IMG/VR virus record: IMGVR_UViG_3300032315_001715
Coordinates: 62,001-126,000 of that record
Source of the DNA: a virus
DNA: 64,000 nt
Strand: one strand, 5' to 3'
Shown: one piece after another, positions 28,449-60,003 of the stretch
Layout: each line of letters opens with the position of its first letter
Position numbering within the stretch: position 1 is the stretch's first letter
Program-made: the position numbers and the translations under genes
Notes under the pieces: model-generated
Databases searched by the model: none
What the model was told of the DNA's origin: nothing
Seen by the model: only the letters and a program-made list of their open reading frames with translations

Positions 28449-29594
28449 TTAAACTCCGGAGATCTGTACCACGGAGATGTTATTTTCAACTATAGCAATA
28501 TTAGCAATGATGTCAATAGGTGCGGCGGTGATGCTTTCGATCCTTGCTGCATTTGGACGATCGGAATATGCACCGTAGTTTTGTATGGTTGGATCGAACA
28601 GCTTTCTATTGCTAGCTATCTCGCTAACCAATGCCCGCGCAACCTGTCTTTTGATGGCATCGGTACCAACGTACAGATTACCAGCATCCGGCTCAGTTGG
28701 CCTTGCATAGGTATAGACCGTGTCAGGGCGCTCATATCCAACCGTAAATGTCACCGTTGTTGTGGCAACATTGGAGATGTTTCCGGTGCGGACGATATTA
28801 CCTAGGAAATTTGGTGTGGCGTTTTCCTCTAATTCCGAGGTCATCTGTGTCCAGCGCATATTAGCACGTTCTCTGGCCTGGCTATTAGACAGGGTGGTTG
28901 GATAGCCCCCGTGGTTGCCTAGCGTGGTTCCCAGGTTTGACACGGCGTTACCGCTGTTGATGGTCCAGGGTTGTCCGTTGATGCTGGCTAGTTGCAAGTA
29001 TGGTCCAGCAACGTATGCGGCCACGCTGGTCTGTGGTGTGTATGCATTGAGCTGGCTTGCAGCGCTGGCAACAGCACCCGTTGTAAACACGATGTTTACG
29101 CCGTTGATGGCGATGTTTGAATCAGTTGTAACCGATGTAAATGCGGTACCAATTTCACTCGGAGCATATGAGTATGTTGCCGGTTGCAATCCTAGCTTGA
29201 TTAACAGTGCCGTACCATTGCCCTCAGCGATCCAAAACGCCTGCCCTTCCCTAGTTGGCGCATTTTTCAGCGTGACATAAGTACCAGCAACGCTTTGATC
29301 TGCCACCACTCCGGTGAACTTCGAAGCAAGATTGATCTTGCTGAGAATGCTAGCTAGGTTATCGGTTGAAAGAAATGCTATCGAATAACCGTTGATCACG
29401 ATGGTCTCGTCATCTGCCATGGGAGTTCCGGTCACGGGCGAAACGCCAGTCACGCTAACAAGTCGATTGGTTCCCCAGGATGTTACTGGATCAAGCCCAC
29501 CGTTTTGATTTCCGGTTAATCCGGAATAATCGGTTGGACTGTTAAGCGTCCAGGTTACTTGATAATAGGTTGGGTTAAGAGAATAGGTGGTCAT
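28449..29594 (-). CDS. virion structural protein (381 aa)
   Basis: Thr/Ser/Asn-rich beta protein with flagellin/hook-like strands (INGVNIVFTTG, ETIVINGYSIAF) and a helical C-terminus (AIKRQVARALVSEIASNRKLFD). Composition and a late element at 29622-29627 indicate a tail or fibre component. Confidence 0.65.
   Translation of the reverse strand: MTTYSLNPTYYQVTWTLNSPTDYSGLTGNQNGGLDPVTSWGTNRLVSVTGVSPVTGTPMADDETIVINGYSIAFLSTDNLASILSKINLASKFTGVVADQSVAGTYVTLKNAPTREGQAFWIAEGNGTALLIKLGLQPATYSYAPSEIGTAFTSVTTDSNIAINGVNIVFTTGAVASAASQLNAYTPQTSVAAYVAGPYLQLASINGQPWTINSGNAVSNLGTTLGNHGGYPTTLSNSQARERANMRWTQMTSELEENATPNFLGNIVRTGNISNVATTTVTFTVGYERPDTVYTYARPTEPDAGNLYVGTDAIKRQVARALVSEIASNRKLFDPTIQNYGAYSDRPNAARIESITAAPIDIIANIAIVENNISVVQISGV
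28489..28516 (-). promoter_or_regulatory. early sigma70-type promoter
   Basis: TTGACA, 16 nt ending TTGC, TATAGT; lies inside the end of the structural gene and drives speD. Confidence 0.7.
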
Positions 29595-48896: not shown

Positions 48897-49730
48897 TTGA
48901 GAATCATTGAATTGGCTAGAAACATCATCAAGGAATCATTTACCGACATCAGCGTTGTTAAACTTGGCATCGGTGCATTGGTAAATCAGGCAGATGCCGA
49001 TCTAGGTGATGAAGCCGCGGCCGCCATAGACGCATTTGTTGGGGTTCCCCACGATGCGATAAAAAAAGGATATACATTTGGAATCATGCATTCCAGACCG
49101 CTTGAAGACGCATATTCTTCCAATCCAAGTCCCCGAGGAATCAAAATGCGTCAGCAGTTGGATTCGGCATTTGCTCCTATAAAGTCGGCATTGAAGTCTA
49201 AGTTTGGCAATGTTATGACGTTGTATCGAGGCCAAGAGAGCATTGATAATGAGAAAACGGAAAGAACCACACTTAGCTGGACATCCGATCCCCGAATTGC
49301 TGCCACGTTCGCCGGTATCGAACCGTGGGAAATGAAGCTGAAGCCCATTACCGATGAACAAATACAATCCGCATTGGACACATATGCCAAAACAGGAGAG
49401 GTTAAATTCCTCAGGAACCGATACGTTCGCACGGACACTCCGACTGATGAGGAAGGAAAGGACGAATTCTATTACGACATATATGACAATCACGACGATC
49501 TACTAACCGACGGCGACGATCTTGAGAATGAATTCAAGGATCATCAGAGATACCATCAGGAATTGATAGATAAACGGGCTCGAAAACTTACAAAGGTGGT
49601 CAGGGCTGAAATACCAGTTGATGACATCATCTGGATAACCGATCGCGCGGGACAAAGCGAATTCATCCTGCACAATCGGCCTGGTGCTCGAGGTTACATT
49701 GATGCTAAAGGAAAGCTGATAAAAGGATAG
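48897..49730 (+). CDS. Alt-like mono-ADP-ribosyltransferase with capsid-targeting-like leader
   Basis: 277 aa, TTG start with GAGAGG upstream. Leader MRIIELARNIIKESF resembles T4 Alt/IP leaders. R-S-E catalytic triad order is visible: Arg in MTLYRGQES, SWTSDPRIAATFAG for the STS strand, and QSEFIL (Q-x-E) near the C-terminus. T4 Alt is packaged, injected and modifies RNA polymerase; this protein has the same layout in a smaller form. Target unknown. Confidence 0.82.
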   Translation: MRIIELARNIIKESFTDISVVKLGIGALVNQADADLGDEAAAAIDAFVGVPHDAIKKGYTFGIMHSRPLEDAYSSNPSPRGIKMRQQLDSAFAPIKSALKSKFGNVMTLYRGQESIDNEKTERTTLSWTSDPRIAATFAGIEPWEMKLKPITDEQIQSALDTYAKTGEVKFLRNRYVRTDTPTDEEGKDEFYYDIYDNHDDLLTDGDDLENEFKDHQRYHQELIDKRARKLTKVVRAEIPVDDIIWITDRAGQSEFILHNRPGARGYIDAKGKLIKG

Positions 49731-49749
49731 GGCGGGATTTCTCCCGCCC
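49730..49749. terminator. bidirectional terminator hairpin
   Basis: GGGCGGGA, TTTC loop, TCCCGCCC between the ADP-ribosyltransferase stop and the 3' end of the tmRNA gene. Confidence 0.75.
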
Positions 49750-49754
49750 CTTCT

Positions 49755-50005
49755 GTTTCTAGGCCTTCCTTGTGGCCCAATGGAATTACGCTGCTAGCAG
49801 CTCATTCTCAAATGCTGCGTTATCATTTGCTGCATTTACAATTTTCTTGCGTTAAGGTAGCTTGCGCACCGCAACCGCACTATTGCTAGATTCCTTTTGC
49901 CCTTAATGCTGCCAATCGATCCCAAATCCGGCCCATAAATGGTGGACCGGAGGAGAATTGAACTCCTGTCTTGTTCAGCTTATTTGGCTACAGTCAAACA
50001 GTTAC
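49755..50005 (-). ncRNA. ssrA: two-piece permuted tmRNA
   Basis: Acceptor piece first: T-arm AGGAG-TTCAATT-CTCCT (49951-49967), acceptor CCGGTCC, A, CCA (49940-49950). Then a 5-nt linker and the coding piece: GGGCCGG (49928-49934, pairs with the acceptor, one G-U), D-analogue GGGATCGATTGG, and the tag frame 49786-49830. Tag: ANDNAAFENELLAA then TAA. Order and ANDN tag match alphaproteobacterial permuted tmRNA. Rescues stalled ribosomes; LLAA end should target ClpXP. Outer ends are approximate. Confidence 0.9.
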
Positions 50006-50011
50006 ATCTTT

Positions 50012-50040
50012 ATTTATGCGAAATTCTCCTCAGTTGTCAA
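50012..50040 (-). promoter_or_regulatory. tmRNA promoter
   Basis: TTGACA, 17 nt, ATAAAT; the -10 overlaps a TAAATA, so it may work both early and late. Confidence 0.65.
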
Positions 50041-52599: not shown

Positions 52600-53490
52600 T
52601 TATCTCAGCTTGACCAATTGGCCCCAGTAAGATCGATTGTTTATCAAATCTATGGTACCAACCTTTCTTGATTCCGGCACCCGAGGAGGATTGGCATACG
52701 ATATGTGTACCCATCCTCCTCCTCCGGCATATTCCAACAACAGCTGATCAAATGGGACATTGTCACGACACCACAGTGCAGTTTCATGTAGGGCCGAAGG
52801 ACCGCCTTGTGTTCGTCGAAAATCACAAGCTTGGAATTTGCAATGTTGCGATGTTGGATTGTTTTGCACCGGCCTGATAGTGCTGTTTACGGCAAAATCA
52901 GGAAAATGATTTTTGATTCGATCAAGAACATTTACCGACAATAATCGTGCGTTAGCAATCAACTGCCACGGTGTGAGACCATTGCTACCCCGTTCACCAA
53001 TTTTCCACGGATCGGCAGACCAGTAGGTGTTTATACCGTTGCCCCTAGCATGGAACGGGAATTCGGTTAGCTGCTGGACCGTGAAATTTTGGCTGAGCTG
53101 GAAGGTTGGAGGTACCGGTCCGGTTCGATTTTCAATGCCGCCGGTATCGTTGCTGATTATCCGCCCAGACGTGGTTGGCGCTCCGCTAACAGGCGGCGCT
53201 TCTTCGGCTGGTACTCCGGTTGCTTGTGCTTGGGCAACCTGCTCCGGAGTAACAACACCTTGCTCGATCAGCCGTTGATTCAATGCTGCTTGTTGATTCG
53301 ACGCTTCTGCACCGCCCTGGAACTGTATGTCCTCTCCGCCGTTCATATAAACTGTTAGCTCGCCTTCGAAACTAGCAGGTATGCCCCGTTCCTTTGCTGG
53401 TTGCCAAAGCGCAACGGGTACTTGATTAACATAGGTATCAGGACTAAACCAAACGTCTTGTCCTATGTAGCTCGGTGGGTTTAACGGCAT
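52600..53490 (-). CDS. virion peptidoglycan peptidase (M15-like)
   Basis: 296 aa. Ala/Gln/Pro-rich N-terminal linker; catalytic domain has TIRPVQNNPTSQHCKFQACDFR and GWVHISY, the S-x-H...D...H zinc arrangement of M15/VanY peptidases. Late element upstream at 53518-53523. Probably a tail- or baseplate-associated wall-cutting enzyme. Confidence 0.72.
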   Translation of the reverse strand: MPLNPPSYIGQDVWFSPDTYVNQVPVALWQPAKERGIPASFEGELTVYMNGGEDIQFQGGAEASNQQAALNQRLIEQGVVTPEQVAQAQATGVPAEEAPPVSGAPTTSGRIISNDTGGIENRTGPVPPTFQLSQNFTVQQLTEFPFHARGNGINTYWSADPWKIGERGSNGLTPWQLIANARLLSVNVLDRIKNHFPDFAVNSTIRPVQNNPTSQHCKFQACDFRRTQGGPSALHETALWCRDNVPFDQLLLEYAGGGGWVHISYANPPRVPESRKVGTIDLINNRSYWGQLVKLR

Positions 53491-53517
53491 TGAATTTATC
53501 CTTTCACAGGTATCAAT

Positions 53518-53523
53518 TATTTA
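53518..53523 (-). promoter_or_regulatory. late promoter element TAAATA
   Basis: CTTAAATAATT upstream of the M15-like gene, which has AAAGGA. Confidence 0.6.
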
Positions 53524-53529
53524 AGGCCG

Positions 53530-53790
53530 TTATTGACGATTGAAAAATGCAGCCAGTTCGGTATATCCACCAATGTAGTTACCTTCTAACCAAATCTGAG
53601 GAACCGTCTTGGCATTTGGAGCCTTTTCCAGCAGCATGGCCTTGGTTACATATTGTTGATTTTCAGTTAGGGCGCTTTCTCCAAATCCCGAACTGATGAT
53701 GTATTCTTGATAACTTATGCCTTTCTCGTTAAAAAGTTCTTTTGCCTTGACGCAATAAGAGCAGTTAATCTTGGTATAAATGTCGGCCTT
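53530..53790 (-). CDS. glutaredoxin
   Basis: 86 aa. MKADIYTKINCSYCVKAKELF with C-x2-C, KTVPQIWLEGNYIGGYTELAAFF with the cis-Pro and GG glutathione site. Likely electron donor to the phage ribonucleotide reductase. Confidence 0.92.
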   Translation of the reverse strand, partial: KADIYTKINCSYCVKAKELFNEKGISYQEYIISSGFGESALTENQQYVTKAMLLEKAPNAKTVPQIWLEGNYIGGYTELAAFFNRQ

Positions 53791-53803
53791 CATTATTAAC
53801 CTT

Positions 53804-54508
53804 TCACAATTCTGAATGCTGTTTATGTACGAGCCTACCATCGACGGTTCGATCTATCCATACGCTATGGGGCGGAGGAGTTTTACCAGCATGTTGGTAA
53901 TGCCAAGCCCATCTAGAATGGTAGTTTACCGTTGCGGTAGGAACGTGGTGTTTCGCCATGTTGCTTTGGATCACGGATGCCCAAAATTGCCTGTCGCTCC
54001 ATAAGCGCATGGCTGATTCCGTGATCCAGTATGTTAACAAATGCAACGCCGGCTTGCCAATAAACATGCAATTGGTATCACAAAAATCTCGGCCATTGCT
54101 TTCGACATCATCAACATATAGGTGATCCCCCGATTCAGTGCAGATGTTTCGAGTTGCTGTTACGATTGCCGCACCGGTCGATCGCATCGTGTCAACCATG
54201 GTCGATACGTGATCAGTGCAAAATGTGTTATCAGCATCAAGGAACGCAACCGCATCGTATCCGCGGCTAAACGCCGAAATAGCACCAATTGCCCTTGGAG
54301 TTGCACCAGCATCAGCATGTTGTACTGGTAATATCATGTGTTCAATGTTGGCAAATATTTTAAGACAGGGGTGTGGTAATCCGTCAGCTATAAACATATG
54401 CGTAACATCGCCATAATCCTGAGATGCCACCGAATCGTGGCATCTCTTTAAGATTTCATATTTCTCATTGTGATAGGGTGTTACAACCGCTACACGAGTT
54501 GTGGTCAA
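53804..54508 (-). CDS. GT2 glycosyltransferase
   Basis: 234 aa. VAVVTPYHNEKYEILKRCHDSVASQ and AVAFLDADNTFCTDH (D-x-D). Start is TTG overlapping the upstream stop (TTGA). Second GT2 enzyme of the window. Confidence 0.85.
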   Translation of the reverse strand: MTTTRVAVVTPYHNEKYEILKRCHDSVASQDYGDVTHMFIADGLPHPCLKIFANIEHMILPVQHADAGATPRAIGAISAFSRGYDAVAFLDADNTFCTDHVSTMVDTMRSTGAAIVTATRNICTESGDHLYVDDVESNGRDFCDTNCMFIGKPALHLLTYWITESAMRLWSDRQFWASVIQSNMAKHHVPTATVNYHSRWAWHYQHAGKTPPPHSVWIDRTVDGRLVHKQHSEL

Positions 54509-54939
54509 AGGCTAAGCCCCTTGAAACTATTTTCGTCGACGTCCATCTTAGCATCACCGATCTTATAACTTGAGATCTCCTGGCGATAGTAATCTGGAAT
54601 TTGATTCTTCAAAATGCAGAACATGTTATAAGTTCTCCCATCCATGAAAGGGGTTATGTCTATTAACCTGTTTTCCCAGGTTTGAATTACGCTATGCAAG
54701 ATAGCTATATGACCATCACGGTTAATATCTCTCAGAAGGTAATATCCAATAATACGAGTGCCACCATACCAATTAGTATATTCGATGGTATTATTGTGGC
54801 AGTCCCACTCCTTACAAAATGGTTTTGATATGATTGGAACCATTCCAATCCAGCGAGCGTCAAGAGATTTTGCAAAATCAATAAGGTCTTTATCAAGCTC
54901 CGGTATGATGAACATTTTCTGATCTAATCTTCCATCCAA
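54505..54939 (-). CDS. unknown protein carrying a copy of the NrdB C-terminal tail
   Basis: 144 aa (or 136 from MFIIPEL). The N-terminal 120 residues have KEWDCHNN, WYGGTRIIGYYLL, ILHSVIQTWENRLIDITPF, a pattern seen in uncharacterised bacterial proteins. The last 23 residues (ISSYKIGD...FKGLSL) are identical to the end of NrdB 1.2 kb away. That tail in R2 proteins binds R1, so this protein may bind NrdA. Confidence 0.7.
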   Translation of the reverse strand: MDGRLDQKMFIIPELDKDLIDFAKSLDARWIGMVPIISKPFCKEWDCHNNTIEYTNWYGGTRIIGYYLLRDINRDGHIAILHSVIQTWENRLIDITPFMDGRTYNMFCILKNQIPDYYRQEISSYKIGDAKMDVDENSFKGLSL

Positions 54940-55660
54940 CTGCAGGACCTGACCTCGGACGATATTCAGGATGATACAACATCTTATGCATGGTTGCTAG
55001 GGCAAGTCCAAGTGATCTGCAAAATTCATCTAGATTACCAATTGTAATATGGTCCATACCAGTTGGGTCTGTCAAAATCCATCTATAGCTTTTCTTATTG
55101 GCCGCACCTTTGTATTTTGAGTTTGCAGCACCGATCTTAGATTTCCTTTCATCCGGACATGACCCCAAAATTCTTCCCTTACCTTTGGCAGAAATTTTCT
55201 CTCTTGTTTCTTTGCTATGGATTTTGGGGCCATATCCTCCCCTAGATTTTTGTAGCATTGATCGAAAAGCACGCTGTTGGTCTGCCTTTTCTTTTGATCC
55301 ATATATTTCTTCGTAAGATTTGCCTTTGTGATTTGGCGGTCTTGAATCTTCGCAAATGTTAGTAAGTATTCCGCCTTTGTTGTAGCCCTTGCGTCCATAT
55401 TTTTTGATCAGAGAAGCTTCGAGCTCATATGCTATGTCTTCATCAATTATATTTTCTGCAACATAAATTATCTTGGGCTCAAGGCCTGCTGCTCTTATAG
55501 CAGTGATTTTGTTTTCTTTGTGCATGTTACGGGTTTCTGGTATTTCCCACAAATGAGTGATGGCTCTACGACCCGTTCCTTTGCCCACATAAAAAGGCTG
55601 ATCGTTTTTTCTTGGATCAGCCAAAATATAAACATAATAAGTTATCTCTGTCTCCTGCAC
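54893..55660 (-). CDS. GIY-YIG homing endonuclease next to nrdB
   Basis: 255 aa, GTG start within a hairpin arm. ITYYVYILADPRKNDQPFYVGKGTGRR is the GIY-YIG core; SKETREKISAKGKGR a NUMOD-like repeat; C-terminal helix-turn-helix-like LDEFCRSLGLALATMHKMLY. Overlaps the NrdB-tail gene by 47 nt. Confidence 0.87.
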   Translation of the reverse strand: MQETEITYYVYILADPRKNDQPFYVGKGTGRRAITHLWEIPETRNMHKENKITAIRAAGLEPKIIYVAENIIDEDIAYELEASLIKKYGRKGYNKGGILTNICEDSRPPNHKGKSYEEIYGSKEKADQQRAFRSMLQKSRGGYGPKIHSKETREKISAKGKGRILGSCPDERKSKIGAANSKYKGAANKKSYRWILTDPTGMDHITIGNLDEFCRSLGLALATMHKMLYHPEYRPRSGPAVGWKIRSENVHHTGA

Positions 55661-55691
55661 TTTGATAAACCTATTTAGTGCAGGAGACAGA
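55647..55691 (-). promoter_or_regulatory. translation-blocking hairpin around a homing endonuclease start
   Basis: 15-bp perfect inverted repeat with 15-nt loop; the 3' arm contains AGGAG and the GTG start at 55660, and the late element lies at the 5' side of the loop. Same logic as the T4 I-TevI leader. Confidence 0.7.
55672..55677 (-). promoter_or_regulatory. late promoter inside the hairpin
   Basis: ACTAAATAGG; a transcript starting about 6 nt downstream lacks the 5' arm, freeing the start. Confidence 0.65.
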
Positions 55692-55700
55692 AATCATTGT

Positions 55701-56834
55701 TTATAAACTTAGGCCCTTGAAACTATTCTCGTCGACGTCCATCTTAGCGTCACCGATCTTATACGAGGAAATTTGGACTTGCTGAGGTGCCACCTGCACT
55801 TCCTTGCCGGAAATCCATTTGTTGGTCCACGGTAGTGGATTAGCCTTTCCCTTGTAGGGGCTATCGAGGCCAATGCTAGTCATGCGAGAATGTGCGATGT
55901 GTTCGACATAATCCTTGAGCAATGCTGCATTAAGACCAATCATCGATCCATCCTTGAACAGATAATCGGCCCAGGCCTTTTCTTGATCAATGGCAGAAAT
56001 AAACATCTTGGTAACCTCATCCCTGCACTCGATTTCGATTTCAACAAAATCAGGATCGTCCTTCGGCAACAGCTTTATCAATGTCTGCGTGCTGCCGAGG
56101 TGTAGATTCTCGTCACGGCAGATAAATTTGATGATCTTGGCATTGCCTTCCATCTTCTTCAATTCGGCAAATGCCCAAGAGCACGCAAAGCTAACGTAAA
56201 ATCGAATACCTTCAAGTGCATTAACTGAATTAAGACACAGCCACAATCTCTTCTTTAGTTCCCTGCGACGTATGTCGATGGTCTGGCCATTGACGCTGTG
56301 CGAACCTTCTCCTAGTAGATGATACCACTGGGTGTATTCGATCAAGCTGTCATAATACTTGGTGATATCCCTGGCGCAGTCGACGATCTGTTCAATATCG
56401 AGCATGGTATCAAATACCTTGCCGGGATCCGGATAGACGTTGCGGATGATGTGCGTGTAGCTCTTGGAGTGGATGGTCTCGGAAAATGCCCAGGTCTGTA
56501 TCCAGGTTTCTAGCTCTGGTAGTGAGCAAATGGACAGGAACGCGAGATTTGGCGCACGCCCTTGCACGCTGTCGAGGATTATCTGTCGCTTGAGGTTGGA
56601 CGTAAAGATGTGCTGTTCATGCGGACTCAGTGCGCGAAAATCCTTCTGGTCCTTGGTTACATCAACTTCCTGTGGTCTCCAGAAGAAACTTAGCTGGTTC
56701 TCGGTAAGACGATCAAACACGCGGTATTTGATGTTGTCATATCTAGCAACAGTTGTGGTGCCAGATTGGTCCAGGAATGCCCGGACCTTGGTGCTGTTGG
56801 CTCTGTTGCCGCTGTCTAGTGTATGGAATGTCAT
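55701..56834 (-). CDS. nrdB: ribonucleotide reductase small subunit
   Basis: 377 aa, full length. Di-iron ligands in EQHIFTSNLKRQ, SETIHSKSYTHI and CRDENLHLGSTQ; the radical Tyr region is near FSETIHSKSYTH. Usual R1-binding C-terminal tail (DENSFKGLSL). AGGAGA ribosome site. Makes deoxynucleotides with NrdA. Confidence 0.95.
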   Translation of the reverse strand: MTFHTLDSGNRANSTKVRAFLDQSGTTTVARYDNIKYRVFDRLTENQLSFFWRPQEVDVTKDQKDFRALSPHEQHIFTSNLKRQIILDSVQGRAPNLAFLSICSLPELETWIQTWAFSETIHSKSYTHIIRNVYPDPGKVFDTMLDIEQIVDCARDITKYYDSLIEYTQWYHLLGEGSHSVNGQTIDIRRRELKKRLWLCLNSVNALEGIRFYVSFACSWAFAELKKMEGNAKIIKFICRDENLHLGSTQTLIKLLPKDDPDFVEIEIECRDEVTKMFISAIDQEKAWADYLFKDGSMIGLNAALLKDYVEHIAHSRMTSIGLDSPYKGKANPLPWTNKWISGKEVQVAPQQVQISSYKIGDAKMDVDENSFKGLSL

Positions 56835-56856
56835 AATGTGTCTCCTGAGCTCTATA

Positions 56857-57552
56857 TTATTGTCTATCTTCTTGTGAAGAGCAATACCTCAATCTACCTT
56901 TAACCCAGCCGTGTGGTTCTTGACCTGGATCAAAGTACCGGCATTCTTGACTATTGTTGTACCATTTCTTACCTAAGGCGGCTTTCGGTGGATTAGCTTT
57001 GACATTGGCAACCCACCCATAAGTTCTATTGTTGATATATGGTGTTGGATCGATGCCTTTGAGATAGAATTTGGTGTACAGATGTCGTGAGACTCCAGTT
57101 GCCTGTTGTAGTTCTTCATATCCTAGATAGGTGGCACTTTTATACTCCAGGGTTTTTGTCTTGATTTTGGACATCTGCGTCTTCCAATTTTCTGACTTAT
57201 TCCTACCCTTGTGAGCTTTGCTGATGCGCTCCTTTATATCATCAGTGGGCCTCCAAGACTTGTTATGCTCGCGAATGTGTTCGCCAAATTCACGTTTAAT
57301 CCAACCATATGATTTGTTGTTACGGTTAGCCATCATGTTGGCCGCATAGATCAACTTAGAATTGCCTGGATAGATCTTAACCAATAACAGATGAGCAATG
57401 TAGTGCTCTTCTGGTGTCAACCGTACAAGGTTAGAAGGATTATCTGACCCTCCAACACACTTAGGAATGATATGGTGTTTCTCAGCATAACCTTCAAATA
57501 CTCTATTGCGACCTTTGTTGATTAACTGCGAATAGATCCTACTATAGTTCAT
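56857..57552 (-). CDS. HNH homing endonuclease between nrdA and nrdB
   Basis: 231 aa. EKHHIIPKCVGGSDNPSNLVRLTPEEHYIAHLLL is the HNH core of intron-type endonucleases. NUMOD-like middle (ISKAHKGRNKSENWK) and a C-terminal WYNNSQECRYFDPGQEPHGWVKGRL module shared in pattern with the GIY-YIG enzymes. Starts 3 nt after the nrdA stop. Confidence 0.88.
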   Translation of the reverse strand: MNYSRIYSQLINKGRNRVFEGYAEKHHIIPKCVGGSDNPSNLVRLTPEEHYIAHLLLVKIYPGNSKLIYAANMMANRNNKSYGWIKREFGEHIREHNKSWRPTDDIKERISKAHKGRNKSENWKTQMSKIKTKTLEYKSATYLGYEELQQATGVSRHLYTKFYLKGIDPTPYINNRTYGWVANVKANPPKAALGKKWYNNSQECRYFDPGQEPHGWVKGRLRYCSSQEDRQ

Positions 57553-57555
57553 AGA

Positions 57556-59874
57556 TTACAAAACACAGCTATCGCAAGTAGGATCTTCAACTTTCTCCGT
57601 TGACGAATCTTTATCTGCTTCCATCATTTTGGAAACATTGACCTCTCCTTGCCCATCGAATTGGTTCATATAATACCAAGTTTTGTGCCCCCACTTGTAT
57701 CCAAGGATCATGTGCTGTAACAGCTCGCTCATCGGAAGCTGTTGATTCTCATGATGTTCCGGGTTGTAGGATGTATTGATGCTGATGCTTTGGTCGATGT
57801 ATTTTTGCAATACCGCTGCTATCTTGAGATAGCCTTCTGGACTGGCTTGATCCCAGAGAAGATCATAGCGATTCTTGAGCCTACGGTACTCGGGAACGAC
57901 CTGCCGCAATACACCGTCCTTGCTTTGCTTCACGGAGATGTATGACCTTGGGGGTTCAATGCCATTGGTGGCATTGCTGAGCTGGCTAGAGCTTTCGCTA
58001 GGCATCAATGCCATCAGTGTCGCATTACGGATGCCGTGTTCCTTGGCCGCAGCACGGAGATTGTCCCATGGCATGCGCTCACGGTATGGTACCAGATCAT
58101 CAACTTCTTTCTTACGTGTGTCAATTGGCATGATTCCCAGGGAATACTTGGTATCATCAACTCCCTCGCACGCGCCCTTTTCGCGAGCCAAGTCAATTGA
58201 CGCCTTGATGAGATAGTAGCTCCATGCTTCCGCGTATTCGTCAACCGTTTCCAGCGCGGAATCGTCGCTATACTTGAGACCATTCTTTGCTAGCCAATAG
58301 GCAAAGTTAATAATACCAACGCCAAGTGGACGATACAAGTCAGTATGCTTTCTTGCTGCCAGTATTGGATAATCCTGATAACTCAACAGGGCATCAAGTC
58401 CTCGAACTGCCAAGGTACACGGCTTTTCAAAATCCTTGGGTTCTCGGATCTTACCCCAGTTAATTGCCGATAGGGTGCAAAGTGCTACCAATCCGTTGGG
58501 ATCATTAACGTCGTCCATTGGTTTGGTTGGCAAGGTGATTTCTGCACAGAGATTGCTCTGTCGGACTGGCGCAACGCTTTCAATGAATGAGCTATGCGTG
58601 TTAGCATGGTCAACATTCATGAGATAAATCCGACCAGTATTCTTGCGTTCCTGCATGAACATGGTGAAGAGGTCAGCAGCTTTTAAGGTCTTTTTACGAA
58701 TCTTGGTGTTGCGCTCGGCCGCTTCATAAAGTTCCCTGAAACGCTCCTGATCAGCAAAGAAGGCATCATACAATCCCGGTACGTCTCCGGGCGAGAACAG
58801 CGTGAGATTGCCACCGGTCAATAGCCGTTCGTATGCGAGCTTGTTGAATTGAACTCCATAATCCATGTGACGTGCGCGATTTTCCTCGGTACCCTTGTTG
58901 TTCTTTAAAACGATTAGATCCTCAAACTCCCAGTGCCAAAAGGGGAAATACACCGTAGCTGCGCCGCCTCGTATGCCCCCTTGATTGCAGCTCTTAACAG
59001 CACTTTGAAACAGCTTGATAAAAGGCACGATACCGGTATGATACGCATCGCCCCTGCGGATCGGGCTTCCTATGCCACGAATACGGCCGGCATTGATTCC
59101 AATGCCGGCCTTCTGGCTAACGTATTTCACAATGGCCGATGTGGTTGCATTGATGCTGTCTATGCTGTCGTCGCTTTCAATCAACACGCATGATGAAAAC
59201 TGTCGCTGCGGTGTTCTCACACCGGCCATTACCGGTGTCGGTAGGCTCACATCGTGATTGCTGATGGCATCATAGTAGTCCTTGATCCACTTCAAGCGCG
59301 TGGCAGTTGGATAAGATGCAAACAACGTGGCTGAAATCAGCATGTATGCGATCTGCGGCGTTTCAAACAGCTGACCGGTCACTCGATTCTTTACCAGATA
59401 CTTGCCTCGCCATTGCTCCATGGCAACATAGGTCAGCTCATAATCTCGATCATGGTCGATGTATGTTTCCATCACTCGCCATTCATCGTCACTGTATGAT
59501 TCCATTAGCTCGGAGTCATAGTATCCCTCACCAACTATCTTGACAACATGCTCCTTGAGCGATGACGGATTGATACCCCCATAAACTTCCTTGCGTATGT
59601 GATAGTTGATCAATCGACCAGCAACATACTGGTAGTTTGGGGTTTCCTCGGTGATAAGATCAGCTGCGGCCTTGATCAACGTTTCTTGGATGTCTCTGGT
59701 CTTCATACCAGTATAGAACTGTAGCTGCGATCGTATTTCAACCTCGCTGGCCGAAACTCCACTGATCCCCTCGGTGGCCCACATAACCTGACGATGGATT
59801 TTTTCAATGTTTAGCAGCTCCCGCCGTCCGTCCCGTTTAGTGACGTATATCTCTCCATGCTTGCTAGTAACCAT
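57556..59874 (-). CDS. nrdA: ribonucleotide reductase large subunit
   Basis: 772 aa. ATP-cone-like N-terminus (VTKRDGRRELLNIEKIHRQV), RQSNLCAEITLPT with the active-site Cys, second site FSSCVLIESDD, and C-terminal CDSCVL redox pair for glutaredoxin. Class Ia. First of the nrdA-HNH-nrdB-GIY operon. Confidence 0.96.
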   Translation of the reverse strand: MVTSKHGEIYVTKRDGRRELLNIEKIHRQVMWATEGISGVSASEVEIRSQLQFYTGMKTRDIQETLIKAAADLITEETPNYQYVAGRLINYHIRKEVYGGINPSSLKEHVVKIVGEGYYDSELMESYSDDEWRVMETYIDHDRDYELTYVAMEQWRGKYLVKNRVTGQLFETPQIAYMLISATLFASYPTATRLKWIKDYYDAISNHDVSLPTPVMAGVRTPQRQFSSCVLIESDDSIDSINATTSAIVKYVSQKAGIGINAGRIRGIGSPIRRGDAYHTGIVPFIKLFQSAVKSCNQGGIRGGAATVYFPFWHWEFEDLIVLKNNKGTEENRARHMDYGVQFNKLAYERLLTGGNLTLFSPGDVPGLYDAFFADQERFRELYEAAERNTKIRKKTLKAADLFTMFMQERKNTGRIYLMNVDHANTHSSFIESVAPVRQSNLCAEITLPTKPMDDVNDPNGLVALCTLSAINWGKIREPKDFEKPCTLAVRGLDALLSYQDYPILAARKHTDLYRPLGVGIINFAYWLAKNGLKYSDDSALETVDEYAEAWSYYLIKASIDLAREKGACEGVDDTKYSLGIMPIDTRKKEVDDLVPYRERMPWDNLRAAAKEHGIRNATLMALMPSESSSQLSNATNGIEPPRSYISVKQSKDGVLRQVVPEYRRLKNRYDLLWDQASPEGYLKIAAVLQKYIDQSISINTSYNPEHHENQQLPMSELLQHMILGYKWGHKTWYYMNQFDGQGEVNVSKMMEADKDSSTEKVEDPTCDSCVL

Positions 59875-60003
59875 GTATCGGAATCCTTTTGATGCTATCG
59901 GCGATGTAAATTTCTATCTGTCTAAAAGACTTAGAATTGTGTATTTAAGTTCTAGCTTCGACGCCTGTCGAATAATTTTATATCGTTTTTGGCGGCGTGT
60001 TGA

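Follow-up and report, generated by a model that had tools for sequence, protein, structure and literature searches.

A probable late-only translation switch controlling the GIY-YIG homing endonuclease gene behind nrdB of a 453-kb phage

In a 453-kb phage, the gene for the small subunit of ribonucleotide reductase, nrdB, is followed on the same strand by a GIY-YIG homing endonuclease gene whose ribosome site is paired into a long hairpin, which raises the question of when, and from which RNA, this endonuclease would be translated. We analyzed a window of 64,000 nucleotides, corresponding to positions 62001-126000 of the 452,799-base virus record; coordinates are those of this window unless another sequence is named. 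The minus-strand gene order at the locus is nrdA, an HNH endonuclease gene, nrdB, the GIY-YIG endonuclease gene, gene X, a glycosyltransferase gene, and a glutaredoxin gene. nrdB (55701-56834) lies upstream of the hairpin, and the LEM-3-like/COG3680-type endonuclease gene (54893-55645) is separated from the nrdB stop by 55 nt, which the putative switch occupies. Gene X (54505-54915), whose product is small, conserved, and marked by invariant Cys, His, and Asp residues, follows the endonuclease gene here. The HNH homing endonuclease gene between nrdA and nrdB is located at 56857-57552 (-), and nrdB is flanked by two endonuclease genes, the HNH one on one side and the GIY-YIG one on the other. 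A group I intron was rejected as an explanation of the locus: an Rfam scan of 53000-60000 returned no intron, and the nrdB frame is intact. A TTGAC scan for nrdAB revealed no clearly recognizable early promoter ahead of nrdA. Elsewhere in the window, a phage-encoded tmRNA with the tag AANDNAAFENELLAA is predicted at 49695-50033 (-).

The hairpin spans 55647-55691 on the minus strand and consists, in the direction of the genes, of a 5' arm (55691-55677), a loop of 15 nt (55676-55662), and a 3' arm (55661-55647). The arms are complementary at 15 of 15 positions, the folding z score of the RNA is -7.6, and none of 200 shuffled sequences folded equally well. A 15-bp hairpin at exactly this place had been proposed in an earlier note on this DNA, and the proposal was borne out. 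Perfect stems of at least 12 bp number 49 in 446 kb of this genome, compared with 0, 1, and 0 in three random sequences generated with a dinucleotide model. Given that long stems are common in this genome, the stem by itself is unremarkable, and its position counts more than its existence.

The position of the stem relative to the translation start was therefore of particular importance. The Shine-Dalgarno sequence AGGAG (55652-55656), which is part of the same CAGGAGACA as found at the ribosome site of nrdB (56839-56856), lies within the 3' arm, together with a GTG codon (55658-55660). The earlier note had taken AGGAG and GTG as the buried start. The burial of AGGAG stood up to analysis, whereas the assignment of the start codon did not: AGGAG comes after GTG, which rules out GTG as a start served by AGGAG. 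The in-frame codon 6 nt beyond AGGAG (55643-55645) is ATA both in the window and in another contig of this virus, to which the window is 100% identical over 2501 bp, whereas the corresponding codon is ATG in the 91%-identical relative L004, and Met is kept at this position in nearly all of the more distant relatives. The order of AGGAG and GTG, the ATG of L004, and the Met of the relatives together indicate that the natural start is the codon at 55643-55645. ATG is likewise missing from the start of L140-L142, which have ATA ATA, yet their frame, stem, and TAAATA motif are intact.

We evaluated the burial of the start as the opening cost, i.e., the free energy required to unfold the ribosome site together with the start codon in the read-through RNA, calculated as constrained opening energies; averages of unpaired probability over the Shine-Dalgarno sequence and the start codon failed to discriminate, and the opening energies were used instead. 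The opening cost of the endonuclease start was 27.4 kcal/mol, the highest of the 374 called starts (median 5.7 kcal/mol), and fell to 4.3 kcal/mol in the predicted late RNA described below. When the sequence upstream of TAAATA was shuffled, none of 300 shuffles reached the native sequestration.

The hairpin contains a candidate late promoter element, TAAATA (55672-55677, context CACTAAATAGG), at the base of the loop and 32 nt upstream of the start. The T of this element is the last base of the 5' arm, with CTAAATA in the loop, and the element is identical in L004. De novo word counts upstream of the called genes gave two strong sense-strand signals, namely the sigma70-like GGTTGAC/TGCTATAAT and TAAATA. 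The latter peaks genome-wide at 30-39 nt upstream of starts, with 33 occurrences on the sense strand vs 2 on the antisense strand, and seven of nine tested genes preceded by TAAATA match tail or head families. The phage also encodes a gp55-type late sigma factor (PHROG, E 5.5e-86). From the geometry of T4 late promoters, late transcription is predicted to start at 55666, 11 nt after the T of TAAATA, and a start around this position would leave the whole 5' arm out of the late RNA. A second sense-strand peak of TAAATA is located 10-13 nt before start codons (17 occurrences, ten of which lie at exactly 11 nt, vs 3 on the antisense strand); with T4 promoter geometry, this spacing predicts leaderless late mRNAs.

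The same calculation was applied to the T4 genes for which the mechanism has been described, I-TevI, I-TevII, segB, and gene e (PMC2988022, PMC3014915). The opening cost decreased from the read-through to the late RNA from 14.2 to 4.6 kcal/mol for I-TevI, from 11.9 to 0.4 for I-TevII, from 15.7 to 5.6 for segB, and from 15.2 to 3.9 for gene e, with the motifs located 19-32 nt from the start. No such hairpin was detected by this calculation for T4 mobE, for which none of this kind has been described.

We then collected relatives of the locus. A profile search of viral contigs with the endonuclease gave 80 loci, 76 of which are directly behind nrdB; the remaining four show no upstream nrdB, and their contig stretch begins less than about 450 bases from the match. 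Three arrangements were found. In the window, L004, and L138-L142, the order is nrdB-endonuclease-X; at about 59 loci, X comes after nrdB and is continuous, in frame or almost in frame, with the endonuclease; and in others, such as L183, L186, L187, L191, and L201, X is missing and the endonuclease alone follows nrdB. An exact-pattern scan of the viral contigs with the window's own arm retrieved only the two known contigs, and among named phages no relative above 60% identity was found, the best match (34%) being from Synechococcus phage B23 and not adjoining nrdB.

The arrangement of motif, stem, and start is conserved across the family. In 40 of the 43 distinct leaders, the endonuclease Met is preceded by TAAATA at a distance of 22-35 nt, compared with none of 15 nrdB starts and 2.4% of random windows of 38 nt. 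In the relatives, the median opening cost dropped from 13.0 kcal/mol in the read-through RNA to 3.9 in the predicted late RNA, and it was 5.3 when the upstream sequence was shuffled (Wilcoxon p 3e-11). There are exceptions: L139 has kept the stem and lost TAAATA, and the hairpins of L210 and L214 are weak. Between L004 and the window, the 5' arm and TAAATA are unchanged. The part of the loop downstream of the predicted transcription start holds most of the differences, and where the outer end of the stem has changed, G-U pairs remain. In the relatives with an X fusion, the codons that contain TAAATA are read in either of two frames (SLxKY and xIN). In the SLxKY frame, Lys is preceded by Ala, Asp, Ser, Thr, or Val, with a codon that always ends in T, which indicates that the nucleotides, not the peptide, are kept.

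Covariation was examined in an alignment of 34 distinct leaders that was built by sequence and not fitted to structure; the sequences are related to one another. The 15-pair helix was paired in 85.4% of cells vs 77.3% after shuffling, a percentage that favors the window structure because the helix was taken from the window and that the slid and shuffled controls answer for only in part. Two-sided changes were found at 10 of the 15 stem pairs, and the covariation score was 0.263, compared with 0.155 for shuffled alignments (0 of 500 as high) and at most 0.106 for slid helices. The 13 leaders with a non-coding 5' arm were 93% paired, with 10 two-sided pairs, while the covariation of the 21 leaders inside the X frame was only marginally above that of shuffles, as would be expected if the stem were disrupted by ribosomes during translation of X.

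The GIY-YIG domain of the endonuclease was recognized by both Pfam (PF22945, 33.4 bits; cut-off 27) and PHROG, and its solved relatives are 9u75/9u7u (E 2e-16). Its open frame is intact, as are the conserved GIY-YIG residues, with the Arg/His/Glu/Asn pattern and the invariant columns. Judged from its sequence, the protein is assigned to the LEM-3-like/COG3680 branch of the GIY-YIG nuclease superfamily. Similarity to I-TevI over the length of the protein was not found, with only 28 columns aligned at a probability of 3.4%. Protein X (54580-54915 (-) in the window; also in L143, L212, and others) is a 112-residue domain with the invariant Cys, His, and Asp. Its structural model is confident (pLDDT 92.8), and a PDB search with this model gave no significant match and a weak resemblance to cysteine peptidases only. 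X is fused to GIY-YIG in many phages (UniProt A0A6J5NTA5). In most relatives, gene X precedes the endonuclease gene and runs in frame into it; here, it follows.

The endonuclease and X form a cassette. Between the window and L004, nrdB differs by about 20% (76-82% identity), whereas the stretch from the nrdB stop through the hairpin, the endonuclease, and X differs by only about 8%, and the jump in identity falls at the nrdB stop. The higher identity of the cassette implies that the switch travels with the endonuclease. The cassette sits between two copies of the nrdB 3' end: copy 1, the functional NrdB tail, at the left cassette edge (55708-55763 (-); L004, 1420-1475), and copy 2, in frame at the end of gene X, at the right edge (54512-54567 (-); L004, 224-279). 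Within each phage, the copies agree closely (93% identity in the window, 100% in L004), whereas between the phages the identity is only 80-84%. Both copies are thus of each phage's own type, and the downstream copy provides protein X with a NrdB C-terminal tail. L009 likewise has a NrdB tail, fused to its X-endonuclease frame.

Several explanations other than a translation switch were weighed against these data. It is very unlikely that the hairpin is a 3'-end or processing element of the nrdB mRNA, such as a terminator or an RNase barrier, that overlaps the next ribosome site by chance. A stem-loop is indeed present just past the nrdB stop in L012 and L013, the closest nrdB relatives without the cassette, and the frequency of long stems in this genome is in line with such a coincidence. 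However, the hairpin moves with the endonuclease cassette (about 92% identical) and not with nrdB, and in the relatives with X in between, the element is about 350 nt away from nrdB and always at the endonuclease start. In addition, the terminator scan omits the hairpin, GATAACTT follows the stem, and neither arm is followed by a U-run, which rules out an intrinsic transcription terminator. We attach equally little credence to the palindrome being a DNA site, i.e., an operator or a cleavage/end site recognized by the endonuclease itself, even though it is located at the cassette edge and I-TevI also binds an operator overlapping its own late promoter (PMC2988022). G-U substitutions, seen in L004 and in the U-G counts of the 34-leader alignment, keep the RNA pairing and break the DNA palindrome, and the arm sequences vary among relatives with the pairing kept; an additional operator role would still be compatible with these observations.

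A different kind of objection is that the switch is ancestral and the window copy a dead relic, in which ATG became ATA and the endonuclease is no longer translated. Because ATA is a very poor start codon, expression of the window copy is uncertain and this copy may be weak or decaying, and the presence of ATA in both contigs of this virus, at a place where nearly all relatives have Met, accords with such a loss. Nevertheless, the preserved reading frame and active-site residues speak against it, as do the intact frame, stem, and motif of the similarly ATG-less L140-L142 and the in-frame GTG codons upstream. We regard a dead relic as unlikely, though by no means far-fetched.

We consider it probable that the hairpin and TAAATA together act as a late-only translation switch of the I-TevI type, controlling a free-standing GIY-YIG homing endonuclease gene that has been inserted behind nrdB. 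In the proposed mechanism, RNA reading through from nrdB, presumably early in infection, would fold into the 15-bp hairpin, and with AGGAG hidden in the 3' arm, the endonuclease would remain untranslated. Later, RNA polymerase, directed by the gp55-type sigma factor, would initiate within the loop, about 11 nt past the T of TAAATA. The resulting RNA, devoid of the 5' arm, would leave the ribosome site free, so that the endonuclease would be made from this RNA, in the window copy putatively from ATA. More tentatively, and with some doubt, the switch might represent a widespread, so far uncultured element family at the 3' end of phage nrdB, whose parts outlived rearrangement of the cassette. In most members, it would be overprinted in the codons of X, with the read-through RNA yielding an X-endonuclease fusion and the late RNA the endonuclease alone.

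The earlier note had placed a late element in the loop, with a transcript lacking the 5' arm starting there, and regarded this as a repetition of the design of the T4 td intron enzyme in an unrelated location. The element itself is recognizable at the sequence level from its spacing of 32 nt, the genome-wide peak, and the gp55-type sigma factor; together with these, the drop in opening cost, the T4 controls, the 40 of 43 leaders, and the covariation support the proposed design in silico. As in I-TevI of the td intron, I-TevII, and I-TevIII of T4, the ribosome-binding site is hidden in read-through RNA and the late promoter lies in the hairpin (PMC2988022, PMC3014915), and I-TevI and I-TevII are GIY-YIG enzymes with the same energy signature. 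Unlike I-TevI, there is no intron here, the protein is unrelated beyond the short GIY-YIG core, TAAATA is in the loop instead of being paired in an arm, and the stem is about twice as costly to open. The location is not of a new type. T4 segB is a free-standing GIY-YIG endonuclease gene with a late promoter inside the hairpin that hides its ribosome-binding site (PMC2988022), although it is located among tRNA genes, not beside nrdB, and is absent from the relatives found here. Aeromonas phage Aeh1 mobE, as far as the account in PMC2988022 goes, is a free-standing endonuclease gene in a ribonucleotide reductase gene and has a ribosome-binding-site hairpin with a late promoter; it codes for an HNH enzyme and splits nrdA, whereas here, the GIY-YIG gene follows nrdB, which is intact and has its 3' end duplicated. 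The element shares its functional class with segB and Aeh1 mobE, and not with the I-TevI protein or intron family: a homing endonuclease gene lies downstream of a same-strand gene, a stable hairpin pairs its Shine-Dalgarno sequence, and a late promoter within this hairpin is recognizable by its motif. The cassette also resembles the fungal mitochondrial mORFs (Allomyces and Glomus), endonuclease elements inserted at a host gene's 3' end, with a copy of its C-terminus on either side (PMC3630166). In the mORFs, however, the inserted C-terminus is foreign, while in the present case both copies belong to the host's own type and the carrier is a phage, not a mitochondrion.

Other hidden starts are present in the genome. 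At two further GIY-YIG endonuclease genes, the ribosome site is covered by a stem whose 5' arm contains TAAATA: G000:284433-285335 (-), with Met18 as the start, where the opening cost falls from 23.4 to 5.5 kcal/mol, and G000:408372-409058 (-), where it falls from 14.1 to 7.4. A relief of at least 6 kcal/mol was found in 3 of 11 endonuclease genes, including the nrdB case, vs 8 of 373 other genes (Fisher p 0.003), and only the nrdB and 284433 cases beat the upstream shuffles. A gene of unknown family (28449-29594 (-) in the window) has a TAAATA late motif 33 nt upstream and an 11-bp stem (GGTCATATGGT/ACCATATGACC) over its start, with an opening cost of 21.9 falling to 4.7 kcal/mol, like T4 gene e. 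At G000:258269-258595 (-), a perfect stem of 14 bp, with AGGAG in its 3' arm and no TAAATA in its loop, hides the start, which is possibly under a different switch.

Previously, late-only hairpin switches had been described for a small number of T4-type endonucleases. Here, the design recurs across dozens of phage sequences, with compensatory base changes, in a protein family unrelated to I-TevI beyond the catalytic core. A stem that sequesters the ribosome site and contains TAAATA 22-35 nt upstream of the start provides a signature with which more can be searched for, and at least two further endonucleases in the same genome show it. In the td intron, delayed expression had been linked to splicing; the presence of this design in so many phage sequences and in another protein family makes delayed expression look like a general need of phage homing endonucleases and not a peculiarity of the td intron.
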